Below, piece by piece: positions 1,338 to 22,232 of a stretch of 64,000 nt of DNA. This stretch comes from Aureitalea marina (GTDB lineage: Bacteria > Bacteroidota > Bacteroidia > Flavobacteriales > Flavobacteriaceae): assembly GCF_002943755.1 (NCBI RefSeq), contig NZ_MQUB01000001.1:2530501-2594500 (forward strand), given 5' to 3'. The notes below the pieces were generated by a model, which was not told the origin of the DNA, searched no databases, and worked only from the letters and a program-made list of their open reading frames with translations. Made by a program: the position numbers and the translations under genes. The stretch's first letter is position 1. Every line of letters starts with the position of its first letter.

Positions 1338-2242
1338 TAATCCTGTACTATGATGTCCTTAGGGTCATCGCGTTGATATTCAGGCTGAATGTTGACGTGG
1401 TTGATTCCAAATTTTTCATCTAGAACCCTCTCGATCTCCACCATGATAAGGTCAAATTGGGATAAACTTATATCCTTATTGAATTCGATATGTGCTTCCA
1501 AGTGTACTTCTTGCTCGTTGAGTTGCCAAACATGTACGTGATGTACATTATCCACTTCTTCTAAAATAGTTAACTCTTGCCGAATATGATTTAGATCTAC
1601 GTCCTCCGGCGTAAATAACATCAATACCTTGAACGAATCCTTGAGCAGGTCATAACCAACTACAATTAAATAAACAGCAATGCAAACTGTTAGAACACTG
1701 TCTACCCAGAACCAGCCAAAATACCTCATCAACAAACCACCAACCAGGACAGCAACCGATGCCAACATATCAGACATCAGATGTAAATAAGCCGAACGAA
1801 TATTCATGTTGTGGTCAGAACCGCTTTTCAACAGTAGTACACTAATACCATTGGCAATTATTGCAATAGCCGCTAACCAGATCACCAGGCCGCTTTCGAT
1901 GGGTTGGGGATAAATAAATCGAACTATGGCCTCATAGATCAAATAGGCCGCGACGATCAATAAAGTAGAGGCGTTTACAAAGGCTGCTATTATTTCGGCC
2001 CGTTTATATCCAAATGTTCTACGGGATGAAGCCTTTCGCTTTACCAGGCGATTGGCAAAAAAACTGATCAATAATGAAAGGACATCTGAAAAATTGTGCA
2101 GTGCATCCGAAAGCAATGACAAACTTCCAGAGATCAGTCCGCCAATCACTTGTGAAACGGTGATCACCACATTCAAAATGACAGCGATCAGCATGTTCTT
2201 TCCCTTCATATCATGGTGGTGATGATGATGGGAATGACTCAT
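1337..2242 (-). CDS. Cation diffusion facilitator, zinc/cobalt efflux (CzcD/ZitB type)
   Basis: Inner-membrane metal/proton antiporter of 301 residues that exports Zn2+ or similar divalent ions. It starts with a histidine-rich tail (six consecutive His at residues 5-10), has six predicted membrane helices, and a cytoplasmic C-terminal domain with HHVHVWQL. Both metal-site motifs are of the His-x3-Asp type: H49/D53 in helix 2 and H154/D158 in helix 5, the arrangement linked with zinc selectivity in this family. It lies 12 bases after rpiB and overlaps the GNAT start by one base, which suggests one transcript. No metal-sensing regulator is visible nearby. Confidence 0.93.
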   Translation of the reverse strand: MSHSHHHHHHDMKGKNMLIAVILNVVITVSQVIGGLISGSLSLLSDALHNFSDVLSLLISFFANRLVKRKASSRRTFGYKRAEIIAAFVNASTLLIVAAYLIYEAIVRFIYPQPIESGLVIWLAAIAIIANGISVLLLKSGSDHNMNIRSAYLHLMSDMLASVAVLVGGLLMRYFGWFWVDSVLTVCIAVYLIVVGYDLLKDSFKVLMLFTPEDVDLNHIRQELTILEEVDNVHHVHVWQLNEQEVHLEAHIEFNKDISLSQFDLIMVEIERVLDEKFGINHVNIQPEYQRDDPKDIIVQD

Positions 2243-2254
2243 AATCGCGATTAA

Positions 2255-2686
2255 TTATTGGCAGGCTATTTTGTCTACCCGTCTTTGATGACGTCCTCCT
2301 TCAAATGGAGTATTCAGGAAGGTGTTTACTATATTGATTGCCTGGGGTTGGCTGGTAAATCGTGCGGGAATACTAATGATATTAGCGTCATTGTGTTCTC
2401 TGGCCAATTGGGCAATCTCCGCTGTCCAGCAAAGGGCAGCCCTAATTTTCTGGTGTTTGTTGGCTGTCATTGAAACTCCATTACCACTTCCACAGATCAA
2501 CACACCAAAATCAGCTTGACCAGAGGAGACGGCTTCCGCTACCGGGTGAACAAAGTCGGGGTAATCAACACTATCACTTAGGTCTGTACCTACATTTTGA
2601 ACCTCGTGTCCTTGTTCTTCAAGAAATTCGACGACAGACATCTTATAATCCGTACCCGCATGGTCATTTCCAATTGCTATTTTCAT
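2255..2686 (-). CDS. rpiB: Ribose 5-phosphate isomerase B
   Basis: Cytosolic enzyme of the pentose phosphate pathway that interconverts ribose 5-phosphate and ribulose 5-phosphate. The 143-residue length fits the RpiB/LacAB family. Visible family features are the N-terminal MKIAIGNDHAG with Asp8 and His9, the catalytic cysteine in LICGSGNG (Cys65) and the active-site histidine in AREHND (His98). I chose the ATG at 2686 over the TTG directly before it because the family starts MKIAIG. It is the first gene of a minus-strand set with the CDF transporter and GNAT, and it borders the candidate replication origin. Confidence 0.95.
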   Translation of the reverse strand: MKIAIGNDHAGTDYKMSVVEFLEEQGHEVQNVGTDLSDSVDYPDFVHPVAEAVSSGQADFGVLICGSGNGVSMTANKHQKIRAALCWTAEIAQLAREHNDANIISIPARFTSQPQAINIVNTFLNTPFEGGRHQRRVDKIACQ

Positions 2687-2689
2687 CAA

Positions 2690-3196
2690 AGGATTTTAGT
2701 TTAATGCAAATATACAATCTTGGCTCCCAACGGGAGAATGATCCTCTTCTAATTCCTTTTTAAAAAACAGTTGATAATTCTGTGAATTGTTGATAACTGA
2801 ATAGGAAAACTATTCTGTCAAAACTCAATTGTTTTTTCCAATAGAAAAAATGAATAAATCATCCAATTATTCTTTTTGTGATTTATCCTAATTGCATTTT
2901 GATGAGAAAGCGCAATTGCTAACATTTTGTTAAAGCCTAGTTATGAAGAATACCAATTGATTCTAACTTATCAACGGTTGTGAATTTCTATTTGGAGTAC
3001 ATTGCTCTACAAGGCATTAAGCAGTGTAGAGTTTGTCGATAAGTCCTAATAATTGATTAAAAATGGAAATTACAAGTCCTTTTCAAAAAACTTATTGCGG
3101 TTTTCAACAAGCTATAATAAAGATCATTTTTAATTAAATAATCTTTAGAAATAACTAATTATAATGTTAACTATGTGAATTGTGGAAAAGGTAATC
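2690..3196. other. Candidate replication origin: AT-rich gene-free region with DnaA-box-like sites
   Basis: This 507-base stretch has no credible gene and is clearly richer in A+T than its surroundings. Compared with the DnaA box TTATCCACA it contains three single-mismatch matches: TTATCAACA (2788-2796, minus), TTATCGACA (3034-3042, minus) and TTTTCCACA (3181-3189, minus). Weaker two-mismatch sites lie at 2769-2777, 2883-2891, 2968-2976 and 3101-3109. A very AT-rich run at about 3120-3175 could serve as the unwinding element, and a 7-base inverted repeat lies at 3005-3011 / 3025-3031. The parS-like sites near 19.4 and 21.4 kb fit an origin-proximal position. Origin function is inference. Confidence 0.45.
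2707..2714 (-). promoter_or_regulatory. Putative -7 promoter element of rpiB operon
   Basis: The minus strand reads TATATTTG, matching the Bacteroidota -7 consensus TAnnTTTG, about 20 bases before the rpiB start. No clear -33 TTTG is seen. Confidence 0.45.
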
Positions 3197-3436
3197 TTAA
3201 ACTATCTTGAGGTCGGACGCGCTGTTGAGATCGTTCAATATCTCTTTCGTTAATTCAATGTCATTCGGGTGAACCAATAGACGTATACCTCCTACCGCAT
3301 TTGAGTGAAAAGGAAGAACACCGACCATGGTTGCGTTTTGGAAGACATAGCGGATCTCATTCTGCTGCAGGAGTAATTCCAATACTGCATATTCGCTGGG
3401 ATAAGTAAAAATCGCAACCAACTGATAGTTCTCCAT
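3197..3436 (-). CDS. DUF2007-type small protein (putative signal transducing protein)
   Basis: A 79-residue soluble protein resembling the DUF2007 family: an alpha/beta sequence with TYPSEYAVLELLLQQNEI near the start, a central GGIRLLVHPNDIELTKEIL segment, and a ferredoxin-like predicted fold. These proteins are common in Bacteroidota and have no established biochemical role; the family name putative signal transducing protein is not backed by function. The gene stands alone on the minus strand between the candidate origin and rnr, and is transcribed toward the origin. The ATG at 3436 is the only reasonable start. Confidence 0.75.
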   Translation of the reverse strand: MENYQLVAIFTYPSEYAVLELLLQQNEIRYVFQNATMVGVLPFHSNAVGGIRLLVHPNDIELTKEILNDLNSASDLKIV

Positions 3437-3490
3437 ATCCTAATTTAGTAATAATTATACAGATAACCTTCGGTATTGCTCTAATAGCTG

Positions 3491-3498
3491 TACTTTTG
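3491..3498 (+). promoter_or_regulatory. Putative -7 promoter element of rnr
   Basis: TACTTTTG fits the Bacteroidota -7 consensus TAnnTTTG, 19 bases before the rnr start. A TTCG at 3469-3472, 18 bases upstream, is one mismatch from the -33 TTTG element. Confidence 0.5.
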
Positions 3499-3517
3499 GG
3501 CACAAGACTTAACCTCT

Positions 3518-5725
3518 ATGCCCAAACGAAAAAAGCGCAACAAAAAACAGTGGGGAAATGAAATTACCTCACGGATCACAAGCCTTTTGCGCAGTCGTAG
3601 GAACACTCCCCTCAATTATAAGCAGATATCAGCAAGTCTGGGATTGGATGACCCCAGTTCCAGAAATCAGATCATCAAGACCCTGAAGCGATTAGAGCAG
3701 AAAGGCGAAATCGTTCAGGTAGATAGAGGAAAGTACACTTTACCAGTCAAAATGAACTATTACACTGGTGTTCTGGATGTCAATTCCAGAGGTCAGGGAT
3801 ATGTAGTGGTGGACGAATTAGAAGAAGACATACTGGTTCAGAAAAAGAACCTGAACAAGGCGCTGCACAAAGACGTGGTAGAAGTATATGTCTTTAAACG
3901 TAGAAGACAAGGGAGACAAGAGGGTGAGATCACCAAGATCCTACAGCGTAAGCGGAACGAATTTGTAGGTGTAATTCACTTATCTGATAGGTTTGCCTTT
4001 GTGGAATGCTTTGGATACAATATGTACACCGACATTTTTGTTCCGAAAAGCCAGGTAAATAAGGCAAAGGATGGAGATAAAGTATTGGTCAAGATACAAG
4101 GTTGGGAGGCACATTCTGAATCGCCAGTGGGTGAAGTGATCAAAGTGCTTGGAAAGGCTGGAGAGCACAATGCCGAGATTCATGCTATCCTGGCTCAATA
4201 CGGTCTGCCTTATGAGTTTCCCCATGAGGTTGAGCATTATGCAAATTCTCTGGACACGAGTATAAGGGAAGATGAAATTGCCAAAAGGCGGGATATGCGG
4301 GAGGTACTGACCTTTACCATAGACCCCAAAGACGCCAAGGATTTTGACGATGCCTTATCTTTTGGAGTGCTTGATGATGGTCATTTCGAGATCGGAATCC
4401 ACATAGCAGATGTTTCTCATTACTTGAAAGAAGGAACTGTTTTGGACGATGAGGCCTACAATCGAGCCACTTCAGTCTATCTTGTGGACAGGGTGGTTCC
4501 CATGCTCCCTGAAGTACTGTCAAACAATGCTTGTAGTCTGAGGCCCCAGGAAGAAAAATATACCTTTTCCGCTATTTTCAAACTAGATTCCAAGGCAAAG
4601 ATCTTGGATCAATGGTTTGGAAGAACAGCGATATACAGTGATGCTCGGTTTGCTTATGAAGAAGCCCAGCACCTGATAGAGAATCCCAAATCGAACGAAA
4701 TACCGGCCAAGACATCACTAACCGGGAAAAAATATCAGGTGGATACTTCCATTCAGAAGGCTATACTGGAGATGGACAGATTGGCTAAGATTCTTCGTGC
4801 AGATAGAATGAGGCAAGGCGCTATTTCATTCGATAAGATAGAAGTGAAGTTCAAACTGGACGAACAAAATGAACCGGAGGGAATTTACTTCAAGGAAAGC
4901 AAGGATGCCAATAAGCTGATCGAAGAGTTTATGTTATTGGCTAACAGAAGAGTTGCTCAGTTTATTGCCAAACAAGATCCACCCAAGACCTTCGTATATC
5001 GGGTACACGACGAACCCGACGATGAGAAGATCGCAGCCTTGGAACACATCATAAAACGATTTGGCTACAAACTGAACACCTTGGACAGACAGTCCACATC
5101 CAGTTCGTTGAATAAACTTCTCAAGGATGTGCAGGGCAAGAAAGAGCAGAACCTGATCGACACTCTGGCCATTCGCTCCATGAGTAAGGCGATCTATAGT
5201 ACACAAAACATTGGTCACTACGGTTTGGCTTTCGATTATTACACCCACTTCACCTCCCCTATTCGCCGTTATCCGGATGTGATGGTACATCGCTTACTGC
5301 AACATTACTTGGATGGTGGAAAATCGGCCAGCCAGGATGCTTTCGAAGAGAAATGTGGTCACAGCAGCGATATGGAATACCTGGCAGCCAACGCCGAAAG
5401 GGATAGTATCAAATATATGCAGGTGAAATATATGCTGGACCATCAGGACGAAGAGTTCCTAGGGGTGATCTCCGGGGTTACGGAATGGGGTATCTATGTG
5501 GAGATCATATCCAATAAATGCGAAGGGATGATACGCATGCAGGACATGCAGGACGATTATTATGTATTTGATCGGACTGAGTTCGCCGCTGTAGGAGAGC
5601 AAAGCAAGAATACCTACCAGCTGGGGGATGAGGTTTATGTAAGGATGAAAGGAGCCGACCTGTTCAAAAAGCAGATCGATTTTGAGATGTTGGGACACCG
5701 GGAAGAATATTTACCACGAGTGTAA
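3518..5725 (+). CDS. rnr: Ribonuclease R
   Basis: Processive 3'-to-5' exoribonuclease that degrades structured RNA and helps in RNA quality control. The 735 residues show the family order: an N-terminal winged-helix segment (about 10-70), cold-shock/OB domains (about 75-230), the RNB catalytic domain (about 255-600) with the metal-binding aspartate cluster in TIDPKDAKDFDDALS (Asp269, Asp275, Asp277, Asp278), and a C-terminal S1 domain (about 645-725). HFTSPIRRYPDVMVHRLL is a strong RNB signature. The gene has its own promoter-like element. The next gene begins 46 bases after the stop. The end of the product lacks the long lysine-rich tail of the E. coli enzyme. Confidence 0.97.
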   Translation: MPKRKKRNKKQWGNEITSRITSLLRSRRNTPLNYKQISASLGLDDPSSRNQIIKTLKRLEQKGEIVQVDRGKYTLPVKMNYYTGVLDVNSRGQGYVVVDELEEDILVQKKNLNKALHKDVVEVYVFKRRRQGRQEGEITKILQRKRNEFVGVIHLSDRFAFVECFGYNMYTDIFVPKSQVNKAKDGDKVLVKIQGWEAHSESPVGEVIKVLGKAGEHNAEIHAILAQYGLPYEFPHEVEHYANSLDTSIREDEIAKRRDMREVLTFTIDPKDAKDFDDALSFGVLDDGHFEIGIHIADVSHYLKEGTVLDDEAYNRATSVYLVDRVVPMLPEVLSNNACSLRPQEEKYTFSAIFKLDSKAKILDQWFGRTAIYSDARFAYEEAQHLIENPKSNEIPAKTSLTGKKYQVDTSIQKAILEMDRLAKILRADRMRQGAISFDKIEVKFKLDEQNEPEGIYFKESKDANKLIEEFMLLANRRVAQFIAKQDPPKTFVYRVHDEPDDEKIAALEHIIKRFGYKLNTLDRQSTSSSLNKLLKDVQGKKEQNLIDTLAIRSMSKAIYSTQNIGHYGLAFDYYTHFTSPIRRYPDVMVHRLLQHYLDGGKSASQDAFEEKCGHSSDMEYLAANAERDSIKYMQVKYMLDHQDEEFLGVISGVTEWGIYVEIISNKCEGMIRMQDMQDDYYVFDRTEFAAVGEQSKNTYQLGDEVYVRMKGADLFKKQIDFEMLGHREEYLPRV

Positions 5726-18912: not shown

Positions 18913-19324
18913 GTACAATTACCAAAAAGAAGACTTTACGTTAGAACATGGCCATGATATCCAGTTTTGGCTGGAAGGTCTTATCCAACAGGAAGCACAT
19001 TCCCTAGGTGAGGTTTCGTTCGTATTCTGCGATGACGAGTATCTACTAAAGATCAATCAAGATTTTTTAGGTCATGATTATTACACGGATATTATCAGTT
19101 TTGATTATGGCCTAGGCAGGCAAGTCAATGGAGAAATTTATGTTTCAATTGACCGTGTTGCGGATAATGCTGAGGATTTGGGCGTAGAATTTACAAACGA
19201 ATTGCATCGTGTGATGGCCCATGGGATATTGCATTTTTTAGGCTTTAAGGATAAATCCGATTCCGAGGCAAAGGAGATGCGCAAGAAGGAGAATGAAGCC
19301 TTAGAGAGCCGTAGTTTTATATAA
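18905..19324 (+). CDS. ybeY: Endoribonuclease YbeY (rRNA maturation)
   Basis: Metal-dependent RNase acting in 16S rRNA 3'-end maturation and ribosome quality control. The 139 residues fit the family. The zinc-site motif is AHGILHFLGFKDKSD: His106 and His110 match the first two ligands, while the position of the third His of the E. coli enzyme is Asp116. I believe this Lys-Asp form is common in Bacteroidota. The ATG at 18905 overlaps the DUF4175 stop by 8 bases, indicating coupling. Confidence 0.92.
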   Translation: MIEYNYQKEDFTLEHGHDIQFWLEGLIQQEAHSLGEVSFVFCDDEYLLKINQDFLGHDYYTDIISFDYGLGRQVNGEIYVSIDRVADNAEDLGVEFTNELHRVMAHGILHFLGFKDKSDSEAKEMRKKENEALESRSFI

Positions 19325-19379
19325 TTAGTTGATAATCAACACAATATCTTGTAATAGGCTGATATTGAATTGATTAGAG

Positions 19380-19387
19380 TATCTTTG
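19380..19387 (+). promoter_or_regulatory. Putative -7 promoter element of mnmG
   Basis: TATCTTTG matches TAnnTTTG. The mnmG start is 81 bases downstream, so the leader would carry both upstream parS-like sites. Confidence 0.4.
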
Positions 19388-19402
19388 CGCTCACTTATTT
19401 GG

Positions 19403-19418
19403 TGTTCCACGTGAAACA
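19403..19418 (+). promoter_or_regulatory. parS-like centromere site 1
   Basis: TGTTCCACGTGAAACA matches the near-palindromic 16-base chromosomal parS sequence bound by ParB/Spo0J (consensus close to TGTTTCACGTGAAACA). It lies in the gap before mnmG. Such sites cluster near oriC and load ParB and SMC. No parA or parB gene is in the window. Confidence 0.85.
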
Positions 19419-19435
19419 GGCTGCTGCCGAAAGTA

Positions 19436-19451
19436 TGTTCCACGTGAAACA
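19436..19451 (+). promoter_or_regulatory. parS-like centromere site 2
   Basis: A second exact copy of TGTTCCACGTGAAACA, 33 bases after the first, in the same orientation and just before mnmG. The half-site TGTTCCAC recurs at 19470-19477 within the mnmG start. Confidence 0.85.
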
Positions 19452-19468
19452 GTAAGAGTTTAAAATTT

Positions 19469-21340
19469 ATGTTCCACAAAGAATATGATGTAGTAGTAGT
19501 TGGAGGGGGGCACGCTGGTTCTGAGGCGGCTGCGGCTGCGGCCAATATGGGTTCCAAAACATTGCTTGTAACCATGAATTTGCAAAACATTGCACAGATG
19601 TCTTGCAACCCTGCTATGGGCGGAATAGCTAAAGGACAAATTGTAAGGGAGATTGATGCACTCGGAGGATATAGCGGGATAGTATCGGACAAGACAGCGA
19701 TTCAGTTTAAGATGCTGAATAAATCCAAGGGGCCGGCTATGTGGAGCCCAAGGGTCCAAAGCGACAGAATGCGTTTTGCCGAGAGCTGGCGTTTAATGCT
19801 GGAGGCTACTCCTAATTTGGACTTTTATCAGGAGATGGTCCAAGGATTGATCATTGAGGGAGACAAAATCAGGGGCGTCAGAACATCGCTTGGATTAGAG
19901 ATAAGGGCGAAGTCTGTGGTCCTGACTAACGGTACTTTCTTAAACGGCTTGATCCATATTGGTGAAAAGAATTTTGGAGGAGGACGCGCTGGAGAAAGAG
20001 CTGCCACTGGGATTACCTCCGAACTTGTCGCCTTAGGATTCGATTCGGGCCGGATGAAAACAGGAACGCCACCTCGAGTTGACGGGCGCTCGCTTGATTT
20101 TAGTAAGATGGTTCCTCAGCCCGGAGATGAGGATCCAGCAAAGTTTTCATACCTGGACGACACAAAACCCCTAACTGAACAGAGAGATTGCCACATGAGC
20201 TATACCAGTCTGGAAGTTCATGATTTGCTACGGGAGGGATTTGATCGCTCTCCTATGTTCAATGGAGCCATTCAGAGTGTGGGCCCACGTTATTGCCCTT
20301 CTATAGAGGATAAGATTCATCGATTTGCTGATAAGGAAAGGCATCAACTCTTTGTTGAGCCAGAAGGATGGGATACTGTGGAGTACTATATCAATGGATT
20401 TTCTACCTCGTTACCCGAAGATGTGCAGTATAAGGCGTTAAAGGCTTGTGCGGGGTTTGAGCATGTGAAATTCTTCCGCCCAGGTTACGCGATAGAATAC
20501 GATTATTTTCCACCAACTCAGCTGAAGCATACTCTTGAGACAAAATTGGTAGAAGGACTTTACTTTGCGGGCCAGATCAATGGTACTACGGGTTATGAAG
20601 AAGCCGCCTCTCAAGGCTTAATGGCTGGTATAAACGCACATCTGAAGTTAAATGAGCGCGATCCATTGGTTTTAAAACGCGATCAGGCCTATATAGGAGT
20701 GCTTATAGACGACCTGATCACGAAGGGGACAGAAGAGCCGTACCGTATGTTCACTAGCCGGGCAGAGTACAGAACGCTCCTTAGGCAGGATAATGCGGAT
20801 TTTAGGCTAACACCGCTAAGCCACGAATTAGGCCTCGCTTCTGATGCTCGAATGGAAAAAATGGAGCAAAAACAGTCAGGGTCTGAAAATTTTGTGCGCT
20901 TTTTCAAGAAAACAAGTGTTCTGCCTGAAGAAATAAACCCAATTTTAGAAGAAAAAGGGTCGGCTTTGGTCTCGCAAAGTGACAAAATGTTCAAATTATT
21001 CGCTAGGCCGAAGCTGAATATGCAGGATATGCGAAGAATTAAAGAGGTAGAGGGCTATATCCAAGACAACGAATTGGACCAGGAAGTTCTCGAACAAACG
21101 GAAATTCAGGTAAAATATGCGGGCTACATAGAAAAGGAGCGGCAAAATGCGGATAAGTTACAGCGCTTAGAAGGCATACGGATACCGGATAACTTCAATT
21201 ATGATCAGCTGAAATCACTTTCTTATGAGGCTAGGGAAAAGTTAAAGGAAATTCAACCTACCAGCATCTCTCAGGCTTCCCGAATTAGTGGAGTTTCACC
21301 CAACGATATCTCGGTAATGCTGGTGTATATGGGCCGTTAG
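19469..21340 (+). CDS. mnmG: tRNA uridine-5-carboxymethylaminomethyl modification enzyme MnmG (GidA)
   Basis: FAD enzyme that, with MnmE, installs the cmnm5 group on U34 of several tRNAs. The 623 residues start with the FAD-binding DVVVVGGGHAGSEAAAAA (Gly12-x-Gly14-x2-Gly17), contain MSCNPAMGGIAKGQ and the family cysteine motif GPRYCPSIEDKIHRF, and end with the helical MnmE/tRNA-binding domain (SYEAREKL, SQASRISGVSPNDIS). The gene is flanked by parS-like sites, as gidA often is in bacteria near the replication origin. A G6 run at 19505-19510 is read in frame. Confidence 0.97.
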   Translation: MFHKEYDVVVVGGGHAGSEAAAAAANMGSKTLLVTMNLQNIAQMSCNPAMGGIAKGQIVREIDALGGYSGIVSDKTAIQFKMLNKSKGPAMWSPRVQSDRMRFAESWRLMLEATPNLDFYQEMVQGLIIEGDKIRGVRTSLGLEIRAKSVVLTNGTFLNGLIHIGEKNFGGGRAGERAATGITSELVALGFDSGRMKTGTPPRVDGRSLDFSKMVPQPGDEDPAKFSYLDDTKPLTEQRDCHMSYTSLEVHDLLREGFDRSPMFNGAIQSVGPRYCPSIEDKIHRFADKERHQLFVEPEGWDTVEYYINGFSTSLPEDVQYKALKACAGFEHVKFFRPGYAIEYDYFPPTQLKHTLETKLVEGLYFAGQINGTTGYEEAASQGLMAGINAHLKLNERDPLVLKRDQAYIGVLIDDLITKGTEEPYRMFTSRAEYRTLLRQDNADFRLTPLSHELGLASDARMEKMEQKQSGSENFVRFFKKTSVLPEEINPILEEKGSALVSQSDKMFKLFARPKLNMQDMRRIKEVEGYIQDNELDQEVLEQTEIQVKYAGYIEKERQNADKLQRLEGIRIPDNFNYDQLKSLSYEAREKLKEIQPTSISQASRISGVSPNDISVMLVYMGR

Positions 21341-21350
21341 TCCAAGATTT

Positions 21351-22232
21351 ATGGCAGTTGTTCCACGTGAAACATTCCAAAAGACCTGGCCAGATACGGT
21401 ATCGGATCATATGGTGAGCCAGGAAGTATTCCAACTCAGGTATGAGGCCCGGTGGGATCTGCTGCGCACTGAACCGGTTCCGACACCAGACAGGCTTTCT
21501 TCTTATTATCAGAGTGGCGAGTATCTATCACATAAAGACGAGGACACCTCCTTGTTTGGGCGTGTTTACATGATGCTTCGCAAGTGGTCTATCAAACAAA
21601 AATACAAACGTATTTCAGCTCTTGGTGGCAGCTCGAAGCGGTTGCTAGATATAGGATGTGGCACAGGAGACTTTCTTTATTTCGCCAATCGGTCGGGTTG
21701 GAACGCAACAGGGGTAGAACCGGATAGTGGTGCTCGTTCATTGGCGCTTGACAAATCATTGGATGTTCGTTCTCAGTGGGCAGATCTCGATGAGCCCAAA
21801 TACGATGTGATCACCATGTGGCATGTGCTGGAGCATATTCCGGAGTTGGAGGCTTGTTGTAAGAAGCTCGTAGATCTGTTGAAACCTGGAGGAACTTTGA
21901 TCATTGCCGTGCCGAATTATCGGTCCTGGGATGCTGTTCATTATGGGCCTCATTGGGCCGCATATGATGTCCCCCGACACCTCTGGCATTTCTCCAAAAA
22001 CAGTTTTGGTCTTCTCTTTCAAGACTCGCTCTCACTGGATGATAATTCACCCATGTATTTGGATCCATTTTATGTTGCGTTGTTATCCGAACGGTATCGT
22101 GGGAATAGAATGATATGGGTCAGAGCAGTGATTAGTGGATTACGCTCCATAATCTTTGGATGGAGAAAAGGCGAGCACTCTTCCCATATATATACTCTGA
22201 CCAAGCCGAAGATGCAGAATAAGCCCCTCTAA
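21351..22232 (+). CDS. Class I SAM-dependent methyltransferase
   Basis: A 293-residue cytosolic methyltransferase. The SAM-binding motif I is LLDIGCGTGDFLYF near residues 100-113, followed by GVEPD, WHVLEHIPE and LKPGGTLIIAVPN, all standard for the Methyltransf_23/11 type. The substrate is unknown. It is the usual gene after mnmG in Flavobacteriaceae and is separated from it by 10 bases, so probably cotranscribed. Its first codons contain the third parS-like site, read as VVPRET; the start could also be a later Met. Confidence 0.85.
   Translation: MAVVPRETFQKTWPDTVSDHMVSQEVFQLRYEARWDLLRTEPVPTPDRLSSYYQSGEYLSHKDEDTSLFGRVYMMLRKWSIKQKYKRISALGGSSKRLLDIGCGTGDFLYFANRSGWNATGVEPDSGARSLALDKSLDVRSQWADLDEPKYDVITMWHVLEHIPELEACCKKLVDLLKPGGTLIIAVPNYRSWDAVHYGPHWAAYDVPRHLWHFSKNSFGLLFQDSLSLDDNSPMYLDPFYVALLSERYRGNRMIWVRAVISGLRSIIFGWRKGEHSSHIYTLTKPKMQNKPL
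21359..21374 (+). promoter_or_regulatory. parS-like centromere site 3, inside a coding region
   Basis: Third exact TGTTCCACGTGAAACA, in codons 3-8 of the methyltransferase gene. Three identical 16-mers within 2 kb and none elsewhere in the window point to a real ParB-binding cluster. Confidence 0.85.

Follow-up and report, generated by a model that had tools for sequence, protein, structure and literature searches.

Genes and features of the rpiB-upstream gap

The window analysed here is a stretch of 64,000 nucleotides (G000:C1:2530501-2594500, G000 being the own genome) from a contig of 3.04 Mb. Towards its left end lies a gene-free gap, bounded by the leftward gene rpiB on one side and on the other by a small leftward ORF, which is followed by the rightward gene rnr:

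2255..2689, minus strand: rpiB, left neighbour (LacAB_rpiB, E 1.8e-60 for 2258-2689)
2690..3196, no strand: gene-free gap upstream of rpiB, the candidate oriC by its size, AT content, retention in relatives and box cluster
3200..3439, minus strand: small ORF of 80 aa, right neighbour (tblastn match in 30 of 80 related loci)
3518..5725, plus strand: rnr, ribonuclease R (RNB, E 9.3e-112)

With ORFs of at least 75 aa masked, no ORF-free run in the window is longer than the 433-bp core of this gap (2764-3196), the second longest being 254 bp at the window end. The gap is 72.0% AT, compared with 54.8% for the window, and the non-overlapping 507-bp stretches are all less AT-rich. The first-pass annotation, which had read the gap as a chromosomal replication origin, was thus right to describe it as the largest gene-free and AT-rich stretch. 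Its name for the small ORF, DUF2007, found no support, as Pfam gave no match to 3200-3439 at E<=1e-3. It had also argued from genes diverging on either side of the gap. This is true of the nearest genes; farther out it fails, the plus strand being dominant to the left of the gap, where long-ORF codons are 100% on that strand at 2475-2495 kb and 69% at 2510.5-2530.5 kb. Divergence was therefore rejected as an argument for an origin beyond the nearest genes.

The gap could be no more than a long regulatory region of rpiB, or an RNA gene, and the rpiB promoter is probably inside it because rpiB starts at the gap edge. Against this, Rfam gave no match at E<=1 within 2200-3700, promoter-like matches in 2600-3300 were not in excess (3 versus 3.5 in shuffles), a terminator search of 2600-3300 found none, and blocks that align among relatives occur at both gap ends and in the middle. 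We find this explanation hardly credible.

DnaA-box-like sites

Sites in the gap were compared with the DnaA box TTATCCACA and with a variant, TTATYAACA, that was derived from the gaps of relatives as described below:

2769..2777, minus strand: left array, box-like TTATCAACT, 1 mismatch to TTATYAACA, aligned with a conserved AGTTAACAA-like block
2788..2796, minus strand: left array, TTATCAACA, an exact variant box (aligned block TGTTNATAG-like)
2968..2976, plus strand: middle array, box-like TTATCAACG (aligned block TTRTTNACAR-like)
3034..3042, minus strand: TTATCGACA, 1 mismatch to both box forms (aligned block TGTTNATAA-like)
3101..3109, plus strand: box-like TTTTCAACA, adjoining the AT-rich stretch (aligned block TATTAACA-like)
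3110..3179, no strand: AT-rich stretch, the presumed unwinding element, 86-88% AT in 50-mers, with conserved CTATAATAA-like and CATCATTTTTATTT-like blocks
3181..3189, minus strand: right end, TTTTCCACA, 1 mismatch to TTATCCACA (aligned block TTGTTGAAAAG-like)

The three 9-mers one mismatch away from TTATCCACA that had been reported at 2788-2796, 3034-3042 and 3181-3189 are indeed there, each on the minus strand. Of 1000 order-2 Markov shuffles, 2 had at least three such sites; the reversed gap had 0. Across the contiguous 2.325-2.665 Mb the gap is the sole 500-bp window with three one-mismatch TTATCCACA boxes, while three other places equal its count in a 1.04-Mb sample of the chromosome. Exact TTATCCACA is absent from the gap, and exact TTATNAACA occurs in it once, an ordinary number, a window at 2.6075 Mb having two. 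Within the contiguous 340 kb its seven one-mismatch TTATNMACA sites are more than any other 500-bp window has. For TTATYAACA there are five sites within one mismatch (one exact and four others), a result seen in 6 of 1000 shuffles, the reversed gap having three; the one exact site is a count reached in 75 of 1000 shuffles. Taking these shuffle tests together with the counts in relatives, the gap holds a cluster of DnaA boxes above chance. Its boxes are weak and more worn than those of relatives, yet they lie inside aligned blocks, and the 9-mers make better sense as forms of a lineage variant, TTATYAACA, than as degraded boxes of the E. coli kind.

The AT-rich stretch directly adjoins the box at 3101-3109, and its composition agrees with the earlier description of a stretch suited to unwinding. 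A repeat at 3165-3189, which contains the TTTTCCACA site, is 80% like 2772-2796. In a check for DnaA-trios in 67 gaps (the own gap and those of relatives), 30 had a box with a CTATAATAA-like block no more than 4 bases after it, against 0 on the other strand and 0 in reversed gaps; by eye, there were at most two TAA triplets, without a clear trinucleotide run.

Conservation in relatives

A scan of genome contigs for Rnr gave 80 loci, the nearest named relatives by Rnr being Flavobacteriaceae. The arrangement of rpiB, gap and rnr, with the small ORF present or absent, is retained in most of them, and 66 of the 80 have an AT-rich rpiB-upstream gap of 100-2000 bp. Once that of the window is counted there are 67 gaps, of which 54 are 485-701 bp long and the longest 1,922 bp, the gaps in these counts being unscreened for other ORFs. 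The 14 loci excluded comprise 10 without rpiB in the flank examined, three with gaps of more than 2 kb and one with a gap of 36 bp.

With no box assumed, the four most enriched 9-mers in the 67 gaps were TGTTAATAG, GTTAATAAC, TGTTAATAA and TGTTGATAA, and AACAACTGT and TATACCGCT were also among the enriched words. TGTTAATAA is present in 48 of the gaps (5.3 expected) and TGTTGATAA in 31 (1.7 expected); the two correspond to TTATYAACA on the opposite strand, that is, to a DnaA box with YA instead of CC at positions 5-6. Exact TTATYAACA occurs 1.63 times per gap, versus 0.21 for reversed gaps, and at least once in 61 of 67, an excess that is partly circular because the motif was derived from these gaps. 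As far as TTATYAACA is concerned, the same partial circularity applies to a ranking of the 70 loci with rpiB, in which the densest TTATYAACA window falls at the gap in 68 and the densest TTATCCACA window in 47, with ties counted as hits and the gap making up 7% of locus length. Genome-wide, TTATYAACA is more frequent than the reversed pattern in three of eight genomes and less frequent in five; there is no consistent excess, so the signal is one of local clustering. From these words, the box of the Flavobacteriaceae seems to be TTATYAACA instead of TTATCCACA.

Aligned with its 11 closest loci, the window shows blocks at the left end of the gap, in the middle, and at the right, where a box is followed by the AT-rich stretch. 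Blastn of the gap against 98 relatives returned short matches only, none of them strong, the best outside the own genome having E 3.4e-5. Conservation in relatives had been put forward as a check on the origin reading, and the cluster of box-like words does recur at the rpiB-upstream position. Position and blocks are conserved, with the gap absent in L170 (Flavobacterium enshiense), where 36 bp lie upstream of rpiB and no box cluster was seen within the 10 kb examined; this lineage may have relocated its origin.

A free search for a 13-column motif ended on an AT-rich palindrome, and k-mers and alignment were used in its place; this search alone left out three further long gaps. The region upstream of dnaA was likewise set aside, both as an origin and as independent proof of the box: neither exact TTATYAACA nor exact TTATCCACA occurs in any of 31 such regions, and one-mismatch TTATYAACA is in weak excess there (1.32 versus 0.69 shuffled and 0.52 reversed).

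Nucleotide skew and the position of dnaA

Skew on the own chromosome was fitted to 1.04 Mb sampled in stretches out of 3.04 Mb (906 ORFs), using four-fold sites and separating gene strand from replichore. A model with two replichores was better than one with none by 46 (GC) and 35 (TA) scaled units. With both skews, the bootstrap 95% interval for the change from minus to plus is 2.39-2.58 Mb, which includes the gap at 2.533 Mb, as the first-pass annotation had anticipated. GC skew alone gave a bootstrap median origin of 2.53 Mb. With the terminus fixed, the best origin was 2.5225 Mb (GC), 2.480 Mb (TA) or 2.460 Mb (GC+TA), the penalty at 2.53 Mb being 4.7 units for GC+TA and 6.9 for TA alone, and a free 25-kb grid over the whole circle gave 2.525 Mb (GC), 2.575 Mb (TA) and 2.475 Mb (both). 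These optima are scattered on either side of the gap. The terminus by GC falls at 1.0-1.25 Mb, about half a circle from the origin; TA prefers 0.7-0.9 Mb. The gap therefore lies at the skew sign change at a resolution of tens of kb, not of single genes, and skew by itself does not favour it over its neighbours, including mnmG 16-27 kb off.

The dnaA gene is at C1:676963-677448, off the skew change and about 1.19 Mb from the gap if C1 closes on itself. It is thus absent from the window, as had been stated, and the common layout of oriC beside dnaA does not apply here.

Three relatives assembled as single contigs (G014, G059 and G056) were sampled for skew at 11-13%. The origin fit for G014 was 875-950 kb (gap 911 kb, rnr 912 kb, dnaA 0.4 kb), that for G059 was 375 kb (gap 388 kb, rnr 386 kb, dnaA 2615 kb), and that for G056 was 2575-2725 kb (gap 2740.5 kb, about 15 kb outside; rnr 2740 kb, dnaA 1222 kb). 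The gap is within the fitted range in one of the three, and all three fits are far from dnaA. In each, the flip misses the gap by 12-16 kb and lies downstream of rnr, which is the side of mnmG where mnmG was placed; it could have been displaced by that distance through local gene content or rearrangement.

parS sites and mnmG as a rival origin site

Three parS sites and mnmG lie to the right of the gap:

19404..19417, no strand: parS 1, GTTNCACGTGNAAC
19437..19450, no strand: parS 2, exact parS match
19469..21340, plus strand: mnmG (gidA), rival origin site, with parS on both sides (GIDA, E 4.2e-159)
21360..21373, no strand: parS 3, exact parS match

These are the only exact parS in the genome (2.550-2.552 Mb, 16-18 kb right of the gap; reversed control pattern 0), and the first-pass annotation had placed them correctly at about 16 kb. 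Proximity to parS is usual for oriC and not required of it. Among the matches listed, rnr and parS are 5-62 kb apart in all 22 same-family genomes that have both on one contig, the own genome included, are on different contigs in eight further genomes, and are 54 and 195 kb apart in two genomes of other families; the 34 genomes listed supplied 32 for this count, G035 and G058 being left out for having parS but no rnr match. This closeness supports the region rather than the exact gap. The parS sites that bracket mnmG (19404-21373) are about 1.9 kb apart, and paired parS about 1.9-2.4 kb apart occur in many relatives among the matches listed, so that parS may be tied to mnmG itself. The sole ParB_N match of the genome is at G000:C1:1543437-1543715, about 1 Mb from the parS cluster.

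An origin beside mnmG and parS (about 19324-21373), with the rpiB gap being something else, would suit the parS on both sides of that gene and the position of the skew flips in the three relatives. Ori-Finder 2022 moreover calls oriC by mnmG, away from dnaA and at the skew change, in two other Flavobacteriaceae, Mariniflexile litorale (text of PMC11278836, whose figure legend marks mnmG as ter, unlike the text) and Algorimicrobium (PMC12843772). Finer skew fits failed as a means of separating the two sites. For G014 the fit was 928 kb, nearer mnmG, with penalties of 6.9 for the gap and 2.6 for mnmG, and mnmG was preferred to the gap in 231 of 300 bootstraps. For G059 it was 376 kb (95% 368-377), between mnmG and the gap, and mnmG was preferred in 164 of 300 bootstraps; skew in this genome nevertheless penalises mnmG (12.2, 16 kb off) about as much as the gap (13.1, 12 kb off). 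On the own chromosome, the gap flanking mnmG (19325-19468) is only 144 bp long and has two parS inside it.

Of the 59 other same-family genomes, 17 were compared for box density over as much as 38 kb running from rnr in the direction of parS; they were 15 with parS within reach of rnr plus G054 and G025. In the own genome and in 16 of the 17, the densest 500-bp TTATYAACA window is at the rnr/rpiB-upstream gap, which holds 5-20 boxes in the relatives. As regards independence, G029 is locus L113 and G054 is 96% identical to L100, which leaves 14 of the 16. In genomes that have rpiB and rnr at separate places, the boxes cluster beside rpiB (G003, G024 and G059) or beside rnr (G002 and G023). In G025, the one exception among the 17, the single contig is cut within the rpiB-rnr gap, hence its cluster is unreadable. 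By contrast with the gap, mnmG has the densest TTATYAACA window in none of 12 genomes with both flanks covered (own included) and none of four with one flank covered, the motif having come from rpiB gaps, mostly of other species. The E. coli box, at no more than one mismatch, puts the gap clearly on top in the own genome and in five of the 17 others (G002, G027, G003, G023 and G030), gives a tied or overlapping result in G008, G012 and G039, and has its top window at or beside mnmG in G014 and G054. On this evidence, we consider it unlikely that the origin is at mnmG.

The linearisation of G025 (G025:C1: rpiB 3532809-3533231, rnr from 573, contig end 3534456) falls in the rpiB-rnr gap, and the cut may reflect a depositor's choice of origin, in which case the site is possibly known to some.

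The origin could also be at some other, unrecognised place within the skew interval, one unlike a classical box cluster. The own-genome skew optima at 2.460 and 2.480 Mb and those of G059 and G014 between gap and mnmG would fit such a site. In the contiguous 340 kb, however, no window equals the gap's one-mismatch count, though the one at 2.6075 Mb exceeds it in exact TTATNAACA, and no other gap with a similar cluster recurs in the regions examined of other family genomes, though in G033 a second cluster, of 8 boxes, lies beyond rpiB. We regard this possibility as distinctly improbable.

Interpretation of the gap as a probable oriC

We consider it very likely that 2690-3196 is the chromosomal oriC of a Flavobacteriaceae chromosome, located far from dnaA. 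This reading, and with it that of the first-pass annotation, is well supported, not proven, by the composition, the box cluster that recurs in relatives, the aligned blocks, the replichore structure with a sign change that covers the gap, and the parS nearby. A cluster of boxes alone does not prove firing, and DnaA-titrating and DnaA-reactivating clusters, known as datA and DARS, are not origins. A role of that kind here has very little to recommend it, as in the genomes tested neither the skew sign change nor parS is far from the gap, and its AT-rich stretch adjoins a conserved box.

If the gap is oriC, DnaA would bind the left array (about 2769-2796), the middle array (about 2968-3042) and the box at 3101-3109, and would open the AT-rich stretch at 3110-3179. 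Two forks would depart from the gap in opposite directions, and ParB at the parS sites 16-18 kb to the right could then help to separate the chromosome copies.

Comparison with known origins

An oriC remote from dnaA is of an ordinary kind; what is new here is the place beside rpiB and the box variant. According to the section of PMC10225481 on Yersinia pestis, oriC in that species neighbours gidA and mioC, 'like that in E. coli'. The candidate resembles the E. coli type in having an intergenic DnaA-box cluster with an AT-rich side and no adjacent dnaA, and differs in its neighbours, rpiB and rnr, in the distance of 16 kb to mnmG (gidA), and in its variant box. It likewise shares remoteness from dnaA with the Ori-Finder origins of Flavobacteriaceae cited above, whereas the neighbour there is mnmG. 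The default box of the Ori-Finder server is TTATCCACA (PMC10225481), which is the default only and not necessarily the setting used in PMC11278836 or PMC12843772. In Elizabethkingia meningoseptica, the Ori-Finder oriC is 649 bp with three boxes at no more than one mismatch from TTATCCACA and dnaA elsewhere (PMC8994065); by this description alone it is like the candidate, which also has three near-TTATCCACA boxes and is remote from dnaA. In the portions of the literature available to us, DoriC being outside the search, no report of a Flavobacteriaceae oriC beside rpiB or rnr was found.

Species-specific DnaA boxes are already known, as the relevant section of PMC10225481 describes for cyanobacteria (TTTTCCACA) and Thermotoga maritima (AAACCTACCACC). 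TTATYAACA, like these, departs from TTATCCACA by lineage; unlike them, it was recognised from sequence alone, and its change is at positions 5-6 (YA for CC).

Were the reading true, a single landmark, upstream of rpiB and usually by rnr, would place oriC in many Flavobacteriaceae genomes. It would correct software calls of oriC at mnmG as well as the custom of starting genomes at dnaA, and methods that estimate growth rate from read depth would gain a correct zero point. Together with a possible matching residue in DnaA, the change in the box would offer a testable case of initiator-box co-evolution in a large lineage.

DnaA and its box

Among the best-scoring 31 of 94 genomes with a DnaA match, the helix-turn-helix signature is DHATV in 30 of the 31 Flavobacteriales proteins (the own one and 29 of 30 others) and DHSTV in one. 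The solved DnaA chains 8btg and 1l8q, when aligned, have DHTTV, and 2z4r has SHPVV; we take these to be the DnaA of B. subtilis, Aquifex and Thermotoga, respectively. The Thr of DHTTV presumably contacts the DnaA box, a point on which a literature search found nothing. The pairing of Ala for Thr with YA for CC amounts to no more than a correlation within a single lineage. We offer tentatively, as an idea that may prove right nearly as readily as wrong, that TTATYAACA is a box of the family's own that co-evolved with its DnaA, and that predictors set to TTATCCACA miss the oriC beside rpiB and default to mnmG.

Elsewhere on the own chromosome, three exact TTATCCACA lie in 900 bp at G000:C1:359961-360860, about 0.87 Mb from the gap and away from the skew change; DnaA may bind this cluster for some other purpose.
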